NCBI RefSeq assembly: GCF_013407955.1
Contig: NZ_JACCBU010000001.1
Coordinates: 1-64,000, forward strand
Direction: 5' to 3'
From: Microlunatus parietis
Lineage (GTDB): Bacteria; Actinomycetota; Actinomycetes; Propionibacteriales; Propionibacteriaceae
Length of the DNA: 64,000 bases
The notes beneath the pieces are model-generated. The model saw nothing but the letters and a program-made list of their open reading frames with translations. It had not been told where the DNA came from and made no database searches. The position numbers and the translations under genes are program-made. Shown here piece by piece: positions 42,210 to 63,158 of the stretch (positions within the stretch are counted from its first letter, which is position 1; each line of letters opens with the position of its first letter).

Positions 42210-43232
42210 ATGAGCGAGAGGCGGAAGGCGCCGACCAGCGTGGACATCGCGCGGGCCGCCGGCATCTCCCAGGCCACCGTGTCCCGGGCGCTGAACGGCG
42301 GCGTCGTCTCCGACGAGACCCGGGCCCGGATCCTCCAGATCAGCAAGTCGCTCGGCTATTCGCCGAACGCGGTCGCCCGCGGCCTGGTCACCAGCCGGAC
42401 CGGGCTGGTCGGCGTGGTCGTCTCCGACATCACGAATCCGTTCTATCCCGAGTTCCTGGAGGAGATCGGGCGGACGCTCGCCGACCGCGGCCAGCAGATG
42501 CTGCTGCAGAACGGGCACGCCGGTGATCAACAGGAGGCGGTCGAGCTGCTGCTGCAGCAGCGGGTGGACGGGATCATCCTGACCGCGGCGACGCCGGGTC
42601 TCGGCATCCTGCGCGACCTGGTCCGGCGCCGCTTCCCGCTGGTGCTGGCGAACCGTACCGTCGACCTGGCCTGCGACTCCGTCGAGGGCGACAACGCTGC
42701 CGGCGCGGCGGCGGTCGTCGATCATCTGTACGGGCTCGGCCACCGGCGGTTCGCCATGATCGAGGGGACGGCCGGGACGAGCACCGCGACACAGCGGACC
42801 GCCGGCTTCCTGGGCCGGCTCGCCGATCATGGCATCGAGCTTAAGGACGAGTTCCGGGTCCGGACCGATTTCCGTTACGAACAAGCATTCACGGGCACCG
42901 AACGGCTACTGGACCGCCGCTATCCCCCGTCGGCGATCTTCTGTCACAACGACCTGCTGGCCTTCGCCGCACTCAACGTGATCAAGGAACGCGGGCTGCG
43001 GGTACCGGAGGACGTCTCGGTGGTCGGGTTCGACAACACGCTGCAGTCGGGCTGGAAGTCGATCGACCTGACCACCGTCGACCAGCCGCTGGCCGCGATG
43101 GCGGCCCGCTCGGTCGAATTGCTCGGCGGCCGGCTGGCCGAGCCGGAGCTGCCGCCGCGCCGCGAGGTGTTCCCGGCGGAGTTGATCATCCGCGGCTCCA
43201 CCGGACGACGCCGCCCTCGGTCCCGATCTTGA
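42210..43232 (+). CDS. LacI-family transcriptional regulator
   Basis: The 340-residue protein has the N-terminal helix-turn-helix TSVDIARAAGISQATVSRALNG, the hinge helix SPNAVARGLVTSRT and a periplasmic-binding-like domain (LVGVVVSDITNPFYPEFLEEI, VDGIILTAATPG, FAMIEGTAGT, PSAIFCHNDLLAFAALNVI, VSVVGFDNT). It probably senses a sugar acid and controls the divergent dehydratase and the DapA-like gene. Confidence 0.93.
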   Translation: MSERRKAPTSVDIARAAGISQATVSRALNGGVVSDETRARILQISKSLGYSPNAVARGLVTSRTGLVGVVVSDITNPFYPEFLEEIGRTLADRGQQMLLQNGHAGDQQEAVELLLQQRVDGIILTAATPGLGILRDLVRRRFPLVLANRTVDLACDSVEGDNAAGAAAVVDHLYGLGHRRFAMIEGTAGTSTATQRTAGFLGRLADHGIELKDEFRVRTDFRYEQAFTGTERLLDRRYPPSAIFCHNDLLAFAALNVIKERGLRVPEDVSVVGFDNTLQSGWKSIDLTTVDQPLAAMAARSVELLGGRLAEPELPPRREVFPAELIIRGSTGRRRPRSRS

Positions 43233-43269: not shown

Positions 43270-44765
43270 TCAGGTGTTGGGGTCGGCGGCGGTCCAGACG
43301 GCGTGCGCGAAGAGGCCTTGACCAAGATCGAAAGTGCCGGAGTAGTTCGTGATCTGAATGTCGCCGTGGGGTGATTTGAAGATCATCGTGTCCGGCTCGG
43401 GTTGTCGCCGCTGCCAGCCGCCGAACGTGACCGCCCGGTGCTCCCGCTTCGCCAGCGGGGTCAGCTTGGCCACAGCGGTCTGGCCGGGCGGACCGTCGGC
43501 CTGGTAGGGCTGGGTGTGATCGAATTCGAGTCGTCCGGTCGCGGTGGACCAGGGGAACCGTGAGCCGGGCCGGGCGAACCGCAGATACCGTTTGTGCCGG
43601 TCCGGGATCTCGTAGCCGTCCACCGGGGCCGGAGTGTCGTTCAGATCGATCACCGGCACCACTTTGACCCGGTCGTGACCGAGCCAATCCTTCACCACAC
43701 TCTTGAGGGTGGGGCCGATCCCCGGCACCCGGCAGATCCCCTGCCCTGACTCCAGCGTCTCGGCGGCAATGTGCACGACCAGGGTCGAGGTCGGCACCAG
43801 CCGGGCCGGATCGAGCTTGGCCACGATCTGCTCGACCGCGGCCCTGAACACAGCGGCCTTAAGGTCGTCGGTGTCGATGATCTTGGCCGGCTTGTCCCGC
43901 AGGGACGGATGAAGCTCGGATTCCTCGACCGGCTCGTCTTCCTCACCCACGATCGGCTCGACGCCGCAGCGAACTCCTCACCGAACAGGTCCGGCTGGCG
44001 ATATTCGGCCAACACCCGAGTCGCTTCCAGTTCGTTGGCCAGCAACGCCAAGCCGGCGGCCCGCCGCTCGTCCGGCGTCCGATCATCTGGCGGCAACGCG
44101 TCAGCCAGTTCTTGGATCCGGCCGAACAGGCGGACCGCGTCCGGCGGCTCCAACCTGGCGAACAGGCCCTTCAATCCTTCGTCGTTGGTTTGGGACAGCC
44201 ACACGCCGAGTTGCTTCTTCCGTTCCGCAGCTTCTCGCTCCAGCCGCGGGCCGTCGACCCGGGCGATCGCGGCTTCGGTCAGGTTCTGCAGTTTCCGCTG
44301 CGCGACCACCCCGGCAGCCCCGGCCAGGTCCTCATCGACCTGCCGCGCCAGCTCCAGGGAGAGGTGGTGGGTCTGACGGGCAATCCCACGGGCCTGCCAG
44401 CCCTCGACCTCACACCTCATCACCTTCTCCCACAACAGCGGGAGCCGGTGACGCAGATCGAGGACTTCACCCACGAACCGGCTGCACGCGAAGTCGCTCT
44501 TCTTGATCTTGACCGCCAACACCTCCAGAGCAAGATCATGGACTTCCGGCGTACCCTCACCGCCGGGCCGCACCCCACGCGGACCGCCAGTCAACTTCAG
44601 TTCGTCGGGATGGATCGAAGCAGCCGAGTTCGCCTCCGCCCACGCAGCGGTCCACGCCAGCAGCACGTTCTCGGCTTCCACACGAGCACGCACCGCCTCC
44701 GCGGCACCCTTGAGGATGTCGTCGGTCCCGTACCCGACAACCCGCTCCTCCAACGACTCGAACAT
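43270..44765 (-). pseudogene. DUF222 / HNH-endonuclease-domain gene, frameshifted
   Basis: From the Met at 44765 (MFESLEERVVGYG) the frame encodes the helical DUF222 domain up to PDLFGEEFAA. Near 43967 (sense GCTGCGGCGTCGAG) the frame shifts. The next frame reads VEPIVGEEDEPVEESELHPS and runs to 43270 through RLEFDHTQPYQADGPPGQ, LTPLAKREHRAVTFGGWQRRQ and MIFKSPHG, the HNH region of this family. One added G would restore about 498 residues. Such genes are common, multi-copy and mobile in actinobacteria. It may be real decay or a sequencing indel. Confidence 0.8.
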
Positions 44766-44847
44766 GTGTACTATTCTACCCCTGGAATCCCCCAAACACC
44801 ACCAAAACAAGGGAAATCTGCCCGCCGAGCGCCTTCAGTTCTTCCTG

Positions 44848-44876
44848 TTGCGCTGGCCTCCTGGCGCGGGTACGGT
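44848..44876 (+). promoter_or_regulatory. Predicted promoter of the threonine leader
   Basis: TTGCGC (44848-44853) and TACGGT (44871-44876) are separated by 17 bp, fitting a housekeeping actinobacterial promoter. Transcription would begin about seven bases after the -10, at or next to the ATG of the leader peptide (44884), so the leader mRNA would be leaderless. Confidence 0.5.
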
Positions 44877-44883
44877 GAGCAGC

Positions 44884-44940
44884 ATGGATCAGCGGTCACT
44901 GAACACCACGACGCCGGACGACCTCCGGCGCGCTCGCTGA
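44884..44940 (+). CDS. Threonine-rich leader peptide of the ThrRS gene
   Basis: An 18-codon ORF reads MDQRSLNTTTPDDLRRAR. Its three consecutive Thr codons (ACC ACG ACG, 44905-44913) directly touch the 5' arm of the first attenuator hairpin. Such leader peptides report the supply of charged tRNA: a ribosome stalled at the Thr codons changes folding of the following RNA. The peptide itself needs no function. No ribosome-binding site is visible, in line with a leaderless start. Confidence 0.75.
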   Translation: MDQRSLNTTTPDDLRRAR

Positions 44941-44985
44941 CCGCTCTCAGCATCGAAGCCCCGGAGCTTGCTCCGGGGCATTTTT
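44912..44985 (+). promoter_or_regulatory. Transcription attenuator (threonine, ribosome-mediated)
   Basis: Region 1 CGCCGGA (44912-44918) pairs with region 2 TCCGGCG (44924-44930). Region 2 (CTCCGG, 44923-44928) can instead pair with region 3 (CCGGAG, 44961-44966). Region 3-4 (GCCCCGGAGC 44958-44967 with GCTCCGGGGC 44970-44979) is a 10-bp stem followed by ATTTTT, an intrinsic terminator. With plenty of Thr-tRNA, 1:2 and 3:4 form and transcription stops. With a ribosome stalled on the Thr codons, region 1 is covered, 2:3 forms and the ThrRS gene is transcribed. Confidence 0.8.
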
Positions 44986-45024
44986 CATGCCCGGGCGGCT
45001 CCACCGAACCCGAGGAGCATGATC

Positions 45025-46269
45025 ATGATCGACAACGACGCGAGACCGGCGGTCCGCGACCATCGCGAGATCGGCCGCGCGATGGGCGTGTTCGCCGGTC
45101 ATCCGGACGTTGGTGCCGGGCTGCCGCTCTGGCTGCCGGCCGGCGCAGTGATCCGGCACGAGTTGGAGCAGTTCGCCCGGGAGGTGGCGCTGGCGTCGGG
45201 CTGCCAGCCGGTCTATTCGCCGGTGCTCGGCAAGCGGGCCCTGTTCGAACGGTCCGGGCACTGGGAGAAGTTCAGCGACGACATGTTCCCGCCGATGCCG
45301 GTCGGCGGTGATCAACTCGTGCTGCGGCCGGCCAACTGTCCGCACCACGCGATGATCTACGCCGCCGAGCAGCACAGCTATCGCGAGCTGCCGGTGCGCT
45401 ACAACGAGTTGGCGCCGATGTTCCGCTCCGAACCGTCCGGCTCGCTGAGCGGGCTGAGCCGGGTCCGCCAGATCGACCTCGACGACACCCACGTGTTCTG
45501 CCGGCCGGACCAGCTGCGGGACGAGGTGGTGCTGGCACTCGACGCGCTGCTGGACGCGTTCGCGGTGCTCGGCATCGACGTGGAATACCTCCGGTTGTCC
45601 TGCCGGGACGACGGTCCCGGCTATCTCGGCTCGGCCGACCAGTGGCGGCAGGCCGAGGACGAACTGCGGGCCGTCGTGTCCGGACGCGGGCTGGACTGGC
45701 GCGAGGCTCCGGGCGAGGCGGCGTTCTACGGGCCCAAGATCGACGTCCAGGTGCTCGACGCAGCCGGCAAGGAGGAGTCGATCGCGACCGTACAGCTGGA
45801 CTTCAACCAGCCGGAGCGGTTCGACCTGAGCTACATCGGCGAGGACGGCGCCGCGCACCGGGTGCTGATGATCCACCGCGGCATCATCGGGTCGATGGAG
45901 CGGATGGCGGCGTTCCTGCTCGAGGCGTACGACGGGCGACTGCCGCTCTGGCTGGCGCCGGTCCAGCTCTGTCTGCTGCCGATCTCCGCAGCTCAGCGCG
46001 ACGCCGCCGACGACGCCGTCCGGTTGCTCCGCGCCGCCGGGGTCCGGGTCCGGGTCGAGCCCGACGGCAGCCTCGGCCGGCGGATCCAGGAGTCACGATC
46101 ACGGCGGGACGCGCTGATCGGCGTGATCGGCGCGAGTGAGGCCGGAGCCGGCGAGATCATGGTGGACGACCCTGCCTCCGGTTCCCGGGCGCGGCTCAAG
46201 ATCGCCCGGCTGGCCGAGTTGATCATGGAAGCGGTCGGGCGGCGAGGCCGGCGGGTGCTGCTCGCGTGA
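45025..46269 (+). CDS. thrS: Short threonyl-tRNA synthetase (catalytic and anticodon domains only)
   Basis: The start at MIDNDARPAVRDH is chosen because CGAGGAG ends 7 nt before that ATG. The 414 residues correspond to the core of the roughly 640-residue ThrRS. All three zinc ligands are present (ANCPHH, DDTHVFC, MIHRG), as are FERSGHWEKFSDDMF, MFRSEPSG, FYGPKIDVQVLD and GSMERMAAFLLE. A C-terminal anticodon-binding domain follows (LWLAPVQLCLLPI to IMEAVGRR). The N-terminal TGS and editing domains are missing, so mischarged Ser-tRNA(Thr) could not be cleared by this protein. It is likely a paralogue induced by threonine limitation through the upstream attenuator. Confidence 0.88.
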   Translation: MIDNDARPAVRDHREIGRAMGVFAGHPDVGAGLPLWLPAGAVIRHELEQFAREVALASGCQPVYSPVLGKRALFERSGHWEKFSDDMFPPMPVGGDQLVLRPANCPHHAMIYAAEQHSYRELPVRYNELAPMFRSEPSGSLSGLSRVRQIDLDDTHVFCRPDQLRDEVVLALDALLDAFAVLGIDVEYLRLSCRDDGPGYLGSADQWRQAEDELRAVVSGRGLDWREAPGEAAFYGPKIDVQVLDAAGKEESIATVQLDFNQPERFDLSYIGEDGAAHRVLMIHRGIIGSMERMAAFLLEAYDGRLPLWLAPVQLCLLPISAAQRDAADDAVRLLRAAGVRVRVEPDGSLGRRIQESRSRRDALIGVIGASEAGAGEIMVDDPASGSRARLKIARLAELIMEAVGRRGRRVLLA

Positions 46270-48644
46270 TCAGCGGGGCCGGACCACGACGGCGGCGACG
46301 TCCTCGGCGAGCACCACCTCGCCGTGCCCGGCCGGCCGTTTCCGGACCAGCGAGTAGCCGCTCGGCATCGGCCGGGATCCCTTGTCGAGCGGACCTGCCA
46401 GCAGCTGGAGCTGCTCCCCGTCGGCCGGGCTCCAGACCCCGGCCAGGCACGTGTGGTCGACCCACGGCGTCCGGCCGGCCGTGTCGCTGGGCCGGAACTC
46501 CGCCTTGGGCAGCCGGGTCGACAGCGCGACCGGACCGCCGCGCTGCGGGCACCCGGGCGGCCTGGTCTGGCCGGTGATCATCCAGCCCGCCGCGAGGTCG
46601 GCGCCCTCGAAGTGCAGCGAGGTGGTCGCGCAGGACATTCCGCCGCCCGGCGCGAGCGCCTGAGACCACGGAGTGCGGCCGGCCGCCGCCCGGGTCAGGT
46701 CGATCAGCCAGAAGGCGAGGTGCTGCCGGCACTGTACGGAGCCGGACAGGGCGACCCAGCGGCCGTCGGCGGAGGCGGCGACCTGGCCGATCCCGTCCGC
46801 TTCCAGCCGCAGTTTGATCACCCGGCCGTCGGGACGGACCGCGTGCACCACTGGGCGTCCGTGCCGCCGACGTTCATGGTGATCAAGGCGCTGTCGCCGG
46901 CCGCGCCGACGATCTTGGCCGGTCCGATGTCGGCCGAGTCGAGCCCGGTCCCGGACGTGGAGCCGTTGATCTTGAGGCTTCGGGCGTCGTACCGGAGGAT
47001 CTCGATGCCGCCGGCACCCTGCAGCGTGAGCAGTTCGCCCTTGCTGTTGAAGGCGACCCCGAGGCAGGTGCAGCCGGTCGACTGCTGCTTGCCGGTGCGC
47101 GCGTCGGCGACGGTCAGCACCTTGCCGTCGGTCGCCGCGAACCAGTCGCCGTCGGCACTGAACGCCAGCTCCGGCCTGGTCGCCCCGAGCGCCTGGACCT
47201 CGATCGACAAGCCGTCGGTCAGCACCAGGTCGGTCCGATGGCTCCCGCCCTCCTCGGTGATCGTCGCCGCGGCGATCACCGGCTTCTCGCCCGGCGGCGG
47301 CGCCGGCGGATGATCATCGAGATACTTGGCTGCGGCCAGGATGTCCAGCCGTCCGTAGCCGTACTCGTCGTTGCGCTGACCAGGCTCGAGGTCGAGGCCG
47401 GCCTGGTTCGCGCTCATGATCAAGGCGATCCTGATCTCTGCCGGCGACGCGTCCGGGTGCCGTGCGGCCAGCAGCGCCGCCGCCGCGGCCACGTACGGCT
47501 CCGCGAACGACGTGCCGTGGCTCCGGCAATGCGTCCGCGGCCGTTCCTGATCATTGATGCAGGTCGAGACGAGTCGCGGGTCGCCCGGCACCGGCCCGTC
47601 GTCGCCGGCCCCGCCCGGCGCCACCAGCTGCACCGTCCGGTTGATCGGCGAATAGCCGGCCCGGTCGCCGTCGGTGGTGGCACCGACGCCGAGCACCGTC
47701 GGTTGGTCGGCCTGGCCGAGCACGTCGTGGCGGCGTCCGCAGTAGTCGTCCCGGAGGAGCCAGCTGCCGCAGTTGCCGACCGCGGCGACCGCCACCACCC
47801 CGTTCAGTTCCGCGTAGGCGTAGGCCGCGTCCAGCATCGAGGAACCATGATCGGTGGCGGAGACGCTGAGCACCCGGGCGCCGTGGTCGACCGACCAGAT
47901 GATCTCGTCGTGGATGCCGGGCTGGTTCGGCGGCCAGCCCTCTCCGTCGCGGTAGTACTGGACGTCCAGCAGCTTGGCGTTCGGGGTGATCCCGGTGATC
48001 CCCTGCCCGTCCGCGGCCGCGGCGACGATCCCGGCGTTGAAGGTGCCGTGGTCCCGGTGGTCCTTCGCGCCGAGCACCGTGTCCCGGGTTGCGACCACTC
48101 GGCCGGCCAGCTCGGGATGCGACGCGTCGACTCCCGCGTCGATCATGGCGACCCGGATCTCCGGGGCGCCCTCGGGCCACAGGTCGAGCAGCCGCTCCCC
48201 GCCCAGCGACTCTCGTGCCTCCTGTTCGAAGGACCGGCCCTCGCCGCTCTCGTACCTCCCGTAACCCGGCGGCGCGGTCTGCCGCACCCGGTCGGCGGCG
48301 ACCACGTCAGGCTCGGCCCGCAGCTCGGCGATCACGCGGTCGGCCTCGGTCTCCGTCGTGGCTACGGTCGCCGAGACCAGGCACCGTTCCTGCAGCCGGA
48401 GCACGCCGATGGCGACCTCGCCGGAGCCGTCGGGCCGCGGCGCCGGACGCTCGGCACACGCAGGGTCGGGATGGGCCCGTTCGACGAGTTCCTTGCGGAA
48501 CGGGCGTTCCTGGCGCGGCGGCGGAGGCGGAGCGGCACCGTCACCCATGATCACCACTGCGGCCGCGGCGATCACCGACAGCGCCACCCCGCCCGCCAAG
48601 ATCGCGATCAACCGGCCGCGGCGGCCGGTTCGCTGCTCGTTCAC
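46270..48644 (-). pseudogene. Membrane-anchored subtilase (S8), frameshifted copy 1
   Basis: The N-terminus has a single transmembrane anchor (residues 11-33). The subtilase domain keeps the full triad: AMIDAGVD (Asp169), RDHGTF (His199), SHGTSFAEP (Ser379), plus oxyanion Asn291. The frame ends early at about 46818 after NVGGTDAQ, while a second frame (46270-46851) continues VVHAVRPDGRVIKL and ends VVVRPR, matching the C-terminal part of the two paralogues next door. One missing G near 46850 explains the break. The intact protein would have about 791 residues. The cause is decay or a sequencing indel. Confidence 0.85.
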
Positions 48645-48703: not shown

Positions 48704-51034
48704 TCAGCGAGTCCGGACGGCGATCTCGTCCGCCTGCTCGGCGAGATTCTGCTCGCCCTCGCCGTTCGGCTTCAGCAGGACCAGCGTGTACTTCAGCGGC
48801 AGGGCCGAGCCCAGGCTGCCCCGGGCCCGGACCTGCGCGCCGTTCTTCAGCGGCCAGACTCCCGAGGCCGTGCAGTCGAGATCCTTCCAGGGCAGGTCGA
48901 CGGGGTCCCGGCTCGGCGTGAACTCGCCGATCGGCAACCGGCCCGTGACCGGCACCTCGCGCTCCTGGCCGGGCTTCAGGCAGGCGGGCTTTCGTTGCAT
49001 GTTTTGGGAGCCGAGCCAACCGAGGTGGAGGGCCTTGTCGCCGTCGAAGTGCGCCAGCATCGAGGTGGCACAGAAGATGTCGTCGTACCACAGCCACTTC
49101 GTCCAGGGTTTGCCGGTCGACCGGGTCTTCTCCACGTCGATCACGCGCGGACAGGACTGGGGACTGGATGCGACGACGAACCGGCCCGTGGCCGAGGCCG
49201 CCACCATGGTGTACGCCAGCCCGCCGCCGTCCAGCTCGGTCGCGGTGCTGTCCGGCCAGACCCCGACCAGCCGGTTGGCGTACTCGCCCTGGCTCAGCGT
49301 CACCAGCGCCACGTCGCCCGCGGCACCGACGAGCTTGGCCGAGTCCAGTCCCCCGGACAGCTTCGGGGCGTAGGTGGTGCCGGTCCAGTCGGCGGTCATC
49401 GGGTCGTACTGGGCGATCTTGAGCCCGCCGTGCGTCTGGGCGGCGAGCACCTGGCCCTTTGTGTTGAACGCGACGCCGCTGCAGCCGCATTCGGTCGACT
49501 GCTGCCGTCCCGTGTACGCGTCGACGACGGTCAACGTCTTCCCGTCGGCGGCAGCGAACCAGGCTCCGTCGGCGCTGAACGCGAACGCCGGGGTCCCGCC
49601 CTGGCCGAGCTGCTGGACGGCGAGCTTCTTGCCGTTGTCCATGATCAATTCGACCTTGCTACCGGTTCGGGCCGCCGCGGTGATCACCGGCTGCTCCGGC
49701 TGCGGCTGCGGCGGATGATCATCGAGATACTTCGCGGCGGCGATCACATTGAGCTTGCCGTAGCCGAACGCGTCATTGCGCTGCCCGCGTACGGTCTCGA
49801 TCGGGTCGGTGGTCGTGATCAAGGCCTGGCGGATATCGGCCGGGCTCGCTTCCGGATGCCGGGCCAGCAGGATCGCCACCGCACCGGTCACGAACGGTGC
49901 CGCGAACGACGTGCCGTCGTTCACGCACAGCGATCGTGGACCGGCCGTTCGGGTGACACACGTGGACAGGATCGCCTCGCCGGGGGCCATGATCATCACG
50001 GTGCGGTTCTTGGACGAGAAGCCGGCTTTGCGGTGCTCCTCGTTCAGCGCGCCCACCCCGAGCACGGTGGGCTGGTCGGCCTGACCGGCAATCTGGTTGC
50101 GGCCGCGCTTGCAGGGATCCAGCGGATCCGGCGCCGTGCCCGGGGGATCCGGCACGCTCACCGTCCAATGCCCGCAATTGCCGACGGCCGGGACCAGAAC
50201 GACGCTGCTCAACTCGGCGTACTCGTACGCGGCCCGGAGCAGCGAACTGTCGTTGGCCCCAGAGGACAGGTTGATCACCCTTGCACCCTGGTCGACGGCC
50301 CAGATGATCTCGTCATGGATCCCGGACTCACCCACCGCCACCCCGTCGCGCCAGTACTGGGCGTCGAGCAGCTTCGCCTTCGGCACCAGGCCCGTCACCC
50401 CCGTGCCGTCTGCGGCGGACGCGATGATGCCGGCGACCGCGGTCCCGTGGGACTCGTACCTGTCACTGCCGAGCACGGTGTCCCTGATCGCGATCACCCG
50501 GTCCCCGAACTCGGCCTGCTTCGGGTCGATCCCGCTGTCGACGACGCCGATCTTGATCTCCGGTGCGTCTGCCGGCCACAGGTCATGGAGCGCCGCGGCA
50601 CCGCCGAGCGCGTCCAGCCCCCACTGCTTCTCCTCGACCCCGTCCACTGCGGGACGGATATCTCTGGGCTCGGCCGGCGGCTGCGGCACGTCCGCGCGAT
50701 CGGCGGCGACGACGTCCTGCTGCTGCCGCAACTCGGCCAGCCTGGCCGCGGCATCGGCTTCCGCGACCACGACGGTCTCCGAGATCAGGCAGTGGCCGCG
50801 GAGCCGGATCACGCCGAGCTCGACGTCGCCCGAACCGGCGGGCTTCGGCCGCGGAACCTTCGCACAGCCGGGCTCGGGCCGGGCCTGCTTGATCAACTCG
50901 ATGTTGACCGGAAGCTCCTCCCGGTCCGGTTGTGCCGTCGGCTGATCACCGACAATTCCCACCACCGCGATCACGGCGACGACGACGATCACGACACCGA
51001 GCGCGATCGCTCCGATCAACCAGAGACGCTTCAC
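48704..51034 (-). CDS. Membrane-anchored subtilisin-like serine protease (S8), copy 2
   Basis: The 776-residue protein has one N-terminal transmembrane segment (residues 5-28), so the rest is outside the cytoplasm. The subtilase domain spans about 135-430: KIGVVDSGID (Asp166), ESHGTAVAG (His196), AVGNCG (Asn286) and DGTSFAAPFV (Ser376). A C-terminal region of about 300 residues looks like a partial beta-propeller (AFSADGAWFAAADGKTLTVVDAYTG, KLVGAAGDVALVTL). The catalytic domain resembles mycosins, but no ESX secretion genes are present. Substrate unknown. It is 60 bp from copy 1 and 21 bp from copy 3. Confidence 0.9.
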   Translation of the reverse strand: MKRLWLIGAIALGVVIVVVAVIAVVGIVGDQPTAQPDREELPVNIELIKQARPEPGCAKVPRPKPAGSGDVELGVIRLRGHCLISETVVVAEADAAARLAELRQQQDVVAADRADVPQPPAEPRDIRPAVDGVEEKQWGLDALGGAAALHDLWPADAPEIKIGVVDSGIDPKQAEFGDRVIAIRDTVLGSDRYESHGTAVAGIIASAADGTGVTGLVPKAKLLDAQYWRDGVAVGESGIHDEIIWAVDQGARVINLSSGANDSSLLRAAYEYAELSSVVLVPAVGNCGHWTVSVPDPPGTAPDPLDPCKRGRNQIAGQADQPTVLGVGALNEEHRKAGFSSKNRTVMIMAPGEAILSTCVTRTAGPRSLCVNDGTSFAAPFVTGAVAILLARHPEASPADIRQALITTTDPIETVRGQRNDAFGYGKLNVIAAAKYLDDHPPQPQPEQPVITAAARTGSKVELIMDNGKKLAVQQLGQGGTPAFAFSADGAWFAAADGKTLTVVDAYTGRQQSTECGCSGVAFNTKGQVLAAQTHGGLKIAQYDPMTADWTGTTYAPKLSGGLDSAKLVGAAGDVALVTLSQGEYANRLVGVWPDSTATELDGGGLAYTMVAASATGRFVVASSPQSCPRVIDVEKTRSTGKPWTKWLWYDDIFCATSMLAHFDGDKALHLGWLGSQNMQRKPACLKPGQEREVPVTGRLPIGEFTPSRDPVDLPWKDLDCTASGVWPLKNGAQVRARGSLGSALPLKYTLVLLKPNGEGEQNLAEQADEIAVRTR

Positions 51035-61914: not shown

Positions 61915-62826
61915 CTACCCGGTCGGGCTGAGACGGTTTCTTGCAGCGTAGTACGCGGTTTCGACCTCGATGGGTGTGAGGTCGTCGATGGCTTCGTGGG
62001 TGCGTTCGTGGTTGAACCAGTGGACCCAGTGCAGGGTCTCGATCTCGACATGATCAACATTGCGCCAAGGCCCGCAGCGTCGGATCATTTCGCTCTTGTA
62101 GAGGCCGATCTGGGACTCGGCGAGGGCGTTGTCGTAGGCGTCGCCCACTGAACCGACGGAGGGGTCGACGCCGGCCTCGATCAGCCTGCTGGTGAAGGCG
62201 AACGAGGTGTATTGGGAGCCGGCGTCGGTGTGGTGGACCAGGCCGGTGAGGTCGGTGATCCCGGCTTGATGGCGGGTCCAGAGCGCGTGTTCGAGGGTGT
62301 CCAGGACGAGTTCGGTGGTCATGGTGGTGGCGGCTCGCCAGCCGACGATCATCCGGGAGTAGACGTCGATGATGAACGCGACGTAGACGGTGCCGGCCCA
62401 GGTCGGCACGTAGGTGAAGTCGGCGACCCAGAGCCGGTTCGGCGCCGGCGCGGTGAAGTCCCGGTCGACCAGATCAGCCGCTCGGGCTTGCTTGGGGTCG
62501 GCGATCGTGGTTCGCACCTGCTTGCCCCTGAGTGCGCCGTGCCAGCCGTTTTGTGCCATCAACCGCTCGACCGTGCACCGGGCCACGTCGTGGCCCTGTC
62601 GGCGCAGATACAGCCACAGCTTCCGAGCACCGAACCCGTCGACGAACCGCTGCTGCCGGGCGGTCTTGATCAACTCGACGATCTCGGTGTCTCGTAACGC
62701 CCGCCGAGATGGCGGCCGGTTACGGGCCTCGTAGTAGGTGGACGGGGCGATCTTGATCCCGTGCTCGGTCAGCACGCGACAGATCGGCTCGACCCCGAAC
62801 CGGTCCCGGTGTTCGTCGATGAACAC
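61915..62826 (-). CDS. IS3-family transposase OrfB (DDE integrase domain)
   Basis: The 303-residue reading frame has VEPICRVLTEHGIKIAPSTYY, the rve core with WVADFTYV (Asp), VHHTDAGSQY (Asp) and NALAESQIGLYKSE (Glu), and the C-terminal HWFNHERTHEAI. Its frame is open upstream in the -1 phase of orfA (RPPTQVLIVFIDEHRD), so OrfAB is probably made by -1 ribosomal frameshifting near the end of orfA. I could not pin down the slippery sequence. Confidence 0.92.
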   Translation of the reverse strand: MFIDEHRDRFGVEPICRVLTEHGIKIAPSTYYEARNRPPSRRALRDTEIVELIKTARQQRFVDGFGARKLWLYLRRQGHDVARCTVERLMAQNGWHGALRGKQVRTTIADPKQARAADLVDRDFTAPAPNRLWVADFTYVPTWAGTVYVAFIIDVYSRMIVGWRAATTMTTELVLDTLEHALWTRHQAGITDLTGLVHHTDAGSQYTSFAFTSRLIEAGVDPSVGSVGDAYDNALAESQIGLYKSEMIRRCGPWRNVDHVEIETLHWVHWFNHERTHEAIDDLTPIEVETAYYAARNRLSPTG

Positions 62827-62828
62827 GA

Positions 62829-63158
62829 TCAGTACCTGGGTGGGCGGTCGAGCTCCGCCGCGAAGAAAGCCGACGCGCTCTTGAGGATCTCGTTCGCTCG
62901 GCGCAACTCGGCGTTCTCCTTCTTCAACGCCTTGATCTCAGCGATTTCCTCGCTGGTCTTGCCCGGCCGCTGACCATGATCAACTTCGGCCCGGCGGACC
63001 CACTTCCGGACGGTCTCGGCCGACCCGATCCCGAGCTGGTCCGCGATCGTGCGGATCGCTTCGAACTCGGACGGGTAAGCGCCGCGCTCCAGCGCCTCAG
63101 CGACCAGCCGGACCGCACGCTCCCGCACCTCGCGGGGATACTTCGACGGACGTGCCAT
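62829..63158 (-). CDS. IS3-family transposase OrfA (helix-turn-helix)
   Basis: A start at MARPSKYPREVRERAVRLVA gives 109 residues. A Met five codons earlier is possible. It contains a helix-turn-helix (AIRTIADQLGIGSAETVRKWVRRAE) and a leucine-zipper-like coiled coil (EEIAEIKALKKENAELRRANEILK), ending at 62829. It binds the element ends and regulates OrfAB synthesis. Confidence 0.92.
   Translation of the reverse strand: MARPSKYPREVRERAVRLVAEALERGAYPSEFEAIRTIADQLGIGSAETVRKWVRRAEVDHGQRPGKTSEEIAEIKALKKENAELRRANEILKSASAFFAAELDRPPRY

Follow-up and report, generated by a model that had tools for sequence, protein, structure and literature searches.

The short thrS locus and its leader region

The window, a stretch of 64,000 nt at the start of the single contig (7.24 Mb) that represents the genome of Microlunatus parietis, contains a short gene for a threonyl-tRNA synthetase (ThrRS), preceded by a promoter, a small open reading frame (ORF), and a series of RNA helices (Table 1). 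The product of the short gene is identified as ThrRS by its score with TIGR00418 (404.5 bits vs. a cut-off of 383.65). It comprises the class II core and the anticodon-binding domain (PF00587, PF03129); no TGS or editing domain was matched by Pfam in the enzyme of the window. The residues C105, H156, and H284, which we take to be the zinc ligands of ThrRS, are invariant among 17 aligned relatives, and threonine makes up 2 of the 414 residues, both encoded by ACC. A longer ThrRS homologue is encoded on the other strand of the same contig (positions 91298-92446) and is 39% identical to the short enzyme in the shared part. The idea that the short enzymes are distinguished by their borrelidin site was dropped; a six-frame motif scan, with residues taken from PMC4389257, matched the motif in 53 of 70 short-thrS loci (17 unmatched), and these have Q or K where our alignment places E. 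coli L489, but three actinobacterial full-length loci also have Q there, so that the short enzyme is not singled out.

Table 1. Coordinates of the features at the short thrS locus of the window.
Feature	Position	Strand	Description	Basis
Promoter	44848..44876	+	-35 box TTGCGC (44848-44853), 17-nt spacer, -10 box TACGGT (44871-44876)	Sequence
Leader peptide ORF	44884..44940	+	MDQRSLNTTTPDDLRRAR*; ATG at 44884, stop codon TGA at 44938-44940	Sequence, family conservation
Helix 1:2	44912-44918/44924-44930	+	7 bp; overlaps the last Thr codon	Folded alone, -11.7 kcal/mol; 0/200 shuffles as good
Antiterminator helix 2:3 with inner helix	44923-44928/44961-44966	+		-18.5 kcal/mol; 7/200 shuffles as good
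Terminator helix 3:4	44958-44966/44971-44979	+	9 bp, CTTG loop	-20.7 kcal/mol; 0/200 shuffles as good
U-run	44980-44985	+	ATTTTT after the 3:4 hairpin; the element spans 44958..44985	Sequence
Segment 5	44997..45002	+	GGCUCC; complementary to the 3' end of segment 3 and the loop (44963-44968)	By eye
Shine-Dalgarno (SD) sequence of thrS	45012..45017	+	GAGGAG, 7 nt 5' of ATG 45025	Sequence
Short ThrRS gene	45025..46269	+	414 aa	Profile matches, Thr codon count

The leader ORF has 18 codons, with the threonine codons ACC, ACG, and ACG at 44905-44913. It can be read directly from the DNA as originally predicted, and its recurrence in 98 of 99 assessable relatives speaks against a chance occurrence. 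The -10 box ends 7 nt before the leader ATG, and the promoter fits a transcription start at A44884, the first base of the leader itself, which would render the transcript leaderless. Throughout the family, a TANNNT box ends 6-7 nt before the leader start (7 nt in 75 and 6 nt in 23 of the 98 loci). TANNNT occurs in that upstream DNA at a background frequency of 0.5% per position, and a mean of 2.3 candidate starts were available for selection. An SD-like motif ahead of the leader start was found in none of the 98 loci. A leaderless start, already suspected from the promoter spacing, is supported by the constant position of the box together with the RNA-seq report on thrL of Streptomyces lividans (PMC8079986).

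Conservation and specificity of the leader

Conservation of the threonine codons in related actinobacteria, which the original prediction had put forward as a check, is evident at 98 of the 99 assessable actinobacterial short-thrS loci. The sample derives from 100 extracted loci (22 + 29 + 30 + 19), one of which (L090) is too short to be assessed; the last 19 were chosen by actinobacterial organism name out of 80 named ones, and at least two further short-type matches, one at a contig edge (G338) and one split (G035), were left out. Three additional loci that carry the leader (L172, L199, L200) stand outside the 99. In the first set of 57 genomes, which includes that of M. parietis, a TTT leader lies upstream of all 22 short-type loci taken, among the matches listed. 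The motif is nearly always TTTP, encoded by ACG-ACG-ACG-CCG; the threonine codons read ACGACGACG in 92 loci, ACCACGACG in five, and ACGACAACG in one. Many relatives also share the VPAR end of the peptide, whose codons coincide with segment 2, and the leader varies elsewhere in length and sequence. The sole locus where the threonine leader ORF was not found (L097, Streptomyces sp. ms191) has kept the hairpin and the SD segment, a point against the attenuator reading.

A covariance model built from 36 loci was run against 394 genomes of the class. A clear short-type thrS is present in at least 61 of them. Another genome (G140) has a split match, probably caused by an in-frame run of GERLG repeats in its short thrS (L172). 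The model matched in 91 of the 394 genomes at E <= 0.01, and 63 hits reach E <= 1.1e-5. Judged by eye from their coordinates, 60 of these strong hits lie just upstream of a short thrS, two upstream of a full-length thrS, and one at a contig end (G281). Many of the 60 belong to or are close to the training set of the model; it is the absence of strong hits from other places that is informative. Among the matches listed, a strong hit is missing in two genomes of the class with a short thrS (G200 and G338), both cut by contig ends.

The two full-length thrS genes with the attenuator (L173 and L174, in genomes G288 and G423) occur where no short thrS was found among the matches listed. Reading the upstream regions of 20 full-length thrS genes revealed the leader in one (L190, genome G400) and its absence from 19. 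This third full-length case likewise comes from a genome with no short thrS among the matches listed. The full-length copy of M. parietis itself (L179) has no such leader upstream, just an ORF with TT that looks unrelated.

Four weaker hits of the model that were inspected, with E-values from 7.9e-5 to 6.6e-4 (L175-L178), are not located at thrS and were treated as chance matches. The covariance model replaced the pattern ACSACGACGCCGN{4,16}CCGGCG, which proved unspecific over the class, matching 270 of 394 genomes and also in the backward control. No known RNA family matched the leader region at the Rfam gathering score, and the five matches below that score are all sRNA families, with no T-box among them.

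Helices and their covariation

Taken as a whole, the 180-nt region is more stably folded than its shuffled versions (z -3.28, 1/200 as good). In the window, helices 1:2, 2:3, and 3:4 are mutually exclusive, with the threonine codons over segment 1 and the stop codon near segment 2. Helices 1:2 and 2:3 lie exactly where they had been predicted (folding energies in Table 1). The predicted terminator is also present, with a stem of 9 bp rather than 10; its hairpin and U-run (44958-44985) have the form of an intrinsic terminator.

The compensatory changes looked for in the helices of relatives were found mainly in one of them. Among 36 aligned loci, 8 of the 12 pairs in the 3:4 hairpin have undergone double-sided changes, and 89.1% of the cells are paired. 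By contrast, covariation is slight in helices 1:2 and 2:3: the former is paired in 96.8% of the cells with zero double changes, the latter in 92.0% with a covariation score that is reached by 159 of 500 shuffles, that is, without excess. When cognate segments were compared with segments exchanged among loci, helix 2:3 gave z -4.0 (98 loci) and helix 1:2 gave z -2.5, dropping to -1.0 with 62 loci and to +1.0 with the 12 loci of the most reduced set. Since both helices are conserved and vary little, covariation argues weakly for them.

The hairpin is conserved also among the homologous loci, but the U-tract turned out to be exceptional. A run of at least four U after the hairpin is present in 7 of 98 loci, including the window, and absent from the other 91, which suggests that attenuation may differ in most relatives. 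A script located the hairpins and the thrS starts; one hairpin (L042) and three starts (L034, L066, L102) were corrected manually, and the hairpin of L105 was re-picked; the hairpins of L033, L034, and L076 are short or irregular. The locus L105 (Streptomyces sp. DH37) carries an extra 19-bp inverted repeat between the hairpin and the SD sequence of thrS.

Partition of threonine codons between leader and gene

The leaders and the genes that they precede differ strongly in their choice of threonine codons. ACG accounts for 288 of 294 threonine codons in the leaders and for 5 of 581 in 70 whole short thrS genes (that of L009, which has an internal TAG, counted up to the first stop). It is absent from the 56 threonine codons of three attenuated full-length thrS genes (L173 and L174 read whole; L223, a part read of the thrS in the genome of L190). 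In the catalytic part of 39 comparison full-length thrS genes, all from genomes that also have a short thrS, ACG makes up 111 of 574 threonine codons; 17 of these genes come from genomes outside the model search, where the leader may be present. Among 2138 threonine codons in the open frames flanking short thrS, taken mechanically as the longest ones, the share is 35.2%. Fisher's test gave p = 5e-30 for ACG, with related genes pooled as if they were independent. GCG (41%), CCG (60%), and GTG (43%) are not depleted in short thrS. The threonine content of the short enzymes is 2.01% of residues vs. 3.84% in the comparison set.

The natural reading of this partition is selective charging, with the ACG-reading tRNA serving as the sensor and its codon avoided by the rescue gene. 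The third threonine codon may be held at ACG by a nucleotide constraint on segment 1, but, given the extent of helix 1:2, such a constraint would not apply to the first two. In E. coli, the codon bias of leaders fits selective tRNA charging, and the thr leader contains eight ACC codons (accessible part of PMC1183508, citing Elf et al. 2003). The strong codon bias in the leader is common to both cases; unlike the ACC of the E. coli thr leader, it is ACG that marks the leader here, whereas ACC is found in the gene. A sensor codon that is present in the leader and nearly gone from the gene would extend selective-charging theory, at the level of sequence, beyond E. coli.

Complementarity of segment 5 to the hairpin loop and the SD flank

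Downstream of the hairpin, segment 5 is partly complementary also to the flank of the SD sequence (44998-45002 with 45014-45018, by eye). The resulting SD hairpin of the window has -8.6 kcal/mol, with 14 of 200 shuffles as good. In the swap test, both partners of segment 5 score better with their cognate segment, the loop of segment 3 with z -11.9 (99 loci), -6.5 (28), and -2.6 (12), the SD flank with z -7.0 (99), -4.5 (28), and -2.8 (12). The controls with 99 loci gave z -0.5 for segment 5 with the reversed SD flank, -1.7 for the loop with the SD flank, and -3.6 for the reversed loop with segment 5, which attributes part of the loop signal to composition or palindromy. Matching changes of loop and segment 5 occur as GAAC/GTTC (L083), GGAT/ATCT (L094), and GGGT/ACCC (L084, L102); non-matching combinations are CAGT/ACTC (L010) and GAGA/ACTC (L051, L061). 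Measured against dinucleotide shuffles, the advantage is of modest size, with mean z-scores of -1.54 (SD region) and -1.81 (loop with segment 5). The pairing of segment 5 is probably under selection, as judged from these comparisons.

Equilibrium folding did not separate the two states of the leader. With helix 2:3 or 3:4 forced, the accessibility of the SD sequence was 0.27 vs. 0.28 and higher in the ON state in 37 of 98 loci; with segment 4 barred, it was 0.29 vs. 0.28 and higher in the ON state in 45 of 98. Barring segment 4 left the pairing of the loop with segment 5 expected in 9 of 98 loci and helix 2:3 in 87. A translational switch at equilibrium is therefore unsupported, and because the SD hairpin stays in both states, segment 5, if it is part of a switch, must act kinetically or via a pseudoknot that such folding cannot draw.

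Mode of action

The region is very probably an attenuator operated by the ribosome, through which a lack of charged tRNA-Thr would induce a second, catalytic-domain-only ThrRS. Comparison among relatives establishes the leader, its threonine codons, the leaderless position of the promoter, the 3:4 helix, and the codon partition; this comparison, with the conserved threonine codons and the compensatory changes in helix 3:4 as the checks originally asked for, strongly supports the attenuation envisaged in the original prediction. From this pattern, we infer the stalling of the ribosome, termination, read-through, and the tRNA species that is sensed. Transcription would begin at the AUG of the leader, as suggested by the promoter and published for one relative. 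With plentiful Thr-tRNA, the ribosome would reach the UGA and cover segment 2, allowing the 3:4 hairpin to form, which in the window should end transcription together with the U-run. When Thr-tRNA is scarce, the ribosome would stall on the threonine codons over segment 1, and segment 2 would pair with segment 3, leaving segment 4 without a partner, so that thrS would be transcribed. The sensor appears to be tuned to the ACG-reading tRNA, and a thrS almost devoid of ACG and low in threonine should be translatable while the switch is on.

At the 91 loci that lack a U-run, the hairpin may terminate without U residues, or control may be translational. A second tier is a further, tentative idea: the stalled ribosome would let the polymerase pass the 3:4 hairpin, and the loop of segment 3 would capture segment 5 and thereby free the SD region. 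A single stalled ribosome would then cause thrS to be both transcribed and translated, and together with the codon partition, the rescue synthetase would be proofed at the sequence level against the very shortage that induces it. Should segment 5 really gate translation, U-run terminators might be dispensable for control by leader peptides in actinobacteria.

A purely translational attenuator, in which the leader ribosome selects folds that hide or expose the SD sequence of thrS and termination plays a minor role or none in most of the family, is improbable. The rarity of U-runs and the covariation of segment 5 with the SD flank and the hairpin loop (in the sets of 99 and of 28 loci) speak for it, and so does the single hairpin without a U-rich stretch described for S. 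lividans thrL (PMC8079986). Against it stand the equal accessibility of the SD sequence in both equilibrium states, the few loci in which the loop is expected to pair with segment 5, the signal of the reversed-loop control, and the good U-run of the window itself. Hairpins without a U-run may, moreover, still terminate in actinobacteria.

Two further readings are highly unlikely. Since E. coli thrS is regulated by its own product, ThrRS might bind its own leader also here, rendering the small ORF incidental; but protein binding would lead one to expect neither a leaderless ORF with near-invariant threonine codons as the conserved item nor the avoidance of the sensor codon by the gene. The other reading is that the small ORF encodes a functional peptide, or acts as a leaderless upstream ORF of constitutive kind, with no response to starvation: the VPAR end, which lies outside TTTP, is conserved in many relatives, but its codons coincide with segment 2 and the peptide is otherwise variable, and neither the codon partition nor the covariation of the hairpin agrees with it.

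Relation to known systems

Leader-peptide attenuation of thrS in actinobacteria is not wholly new, and the novelty claimed for it in the original prediction was too strong. A leaderless, threonine-dependent leader upstream of thrS (thrL) was reported for S. lividans TK24 on the basis of RNA-seq in 2021; the accessible part of that account describes one hairpin, no U-rich stretch, and a termination that it calls unclear (PMC8079986). The thrL peptide MKRVRPFLETTPGFVPAR was found exactly, directly upstream of a short thrS, in L199 and L200 (2 of 295 genomes searched by pattern; both Streptomyces), which together with the identical layout places thrL in the leader family of the window. It differs from the leader of the window, which has three threonine codons and a U-run, in having two threonines in the peptide. 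The account concerns one species and, in its accessible part, gives no antiterminator, conservation, codon partition, or SD-flank segment. In the open-access literature searched, no account of the ACG partition or of the downstream SD-flank segment was met; codon choice was covered narrowly, and absence from print is unproven. The kind of device is thus known, with one member in print, to which family-wide conservation, the ACG partition, and a possible second tier are added. A single threonine-sensing device would span a conserved set of actinobacterial genomes.

A parallel case is an auxiliary gene for a tryptophanyl-tRNA synthetase (TrpRS), which reportedly stems from Streptomyces coelicolor. 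Its product is antibiotic-resistant and the gene under ribosome-mediated transcriptional attenuation, according to the title by Vecchione and Sello (2010) as cited in PMC4787780. Both cases seem to represent a second synthetase gene under leader-peptide attenuation, but that system concerns tryptophan and, by the title, an antibiotic-resistant enzyme. The editing-free second ThrRS may serve during threonine shortage or during inhibition of the main ThrRS.

Candidate attenuators have also been listed for Streptomyces trpS and leuS in a survey of actinobacteria from 2005 (PMC1262725). In the accessible part of that survey, these candidates resemble the present case in that a leader peptide is followed by an antiterminator, a terminator, and then a gene for an aminoacyl-tRNA synthetase; a difference is that those of leuS are described with poly-U tracts. 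For threonine operons, the same part reports no conserved structure. It also relates that mutating putative regulatory codons of the S. coelicolor ilvB leader was without effect and that the results for leuA were inconsistent with classical attenuation; an actinobacterial leader peptide therefore need not mean attenuation, which counts against the attenuator proposed here.

Neighboring genes and other elements

Upstream of the promoter, the - strand carries two overlapping frames (43270-44810), one of which (372 aa) matches DUF222, the other being without a Pfam match; a frame change within a single gene might account for both. They are preceded by a gene for a LacI-type regulator (42210-43232). 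In L004, the end of a similar LacI-type gene directly precedes the leader (by eye), so that the DUF222 gene may have been added in the window. Beyond the short thrS, two adjacent ORFs on the - strand (46818-48644 and 48704-51034), judged subtilase-like by eye, resemble each other and are probably paralogues. The sole Rfam match of the window at gathering score is an ALIL pseudoknot (RF01497, 79.2 bits) on the - strand at 62743-62871.
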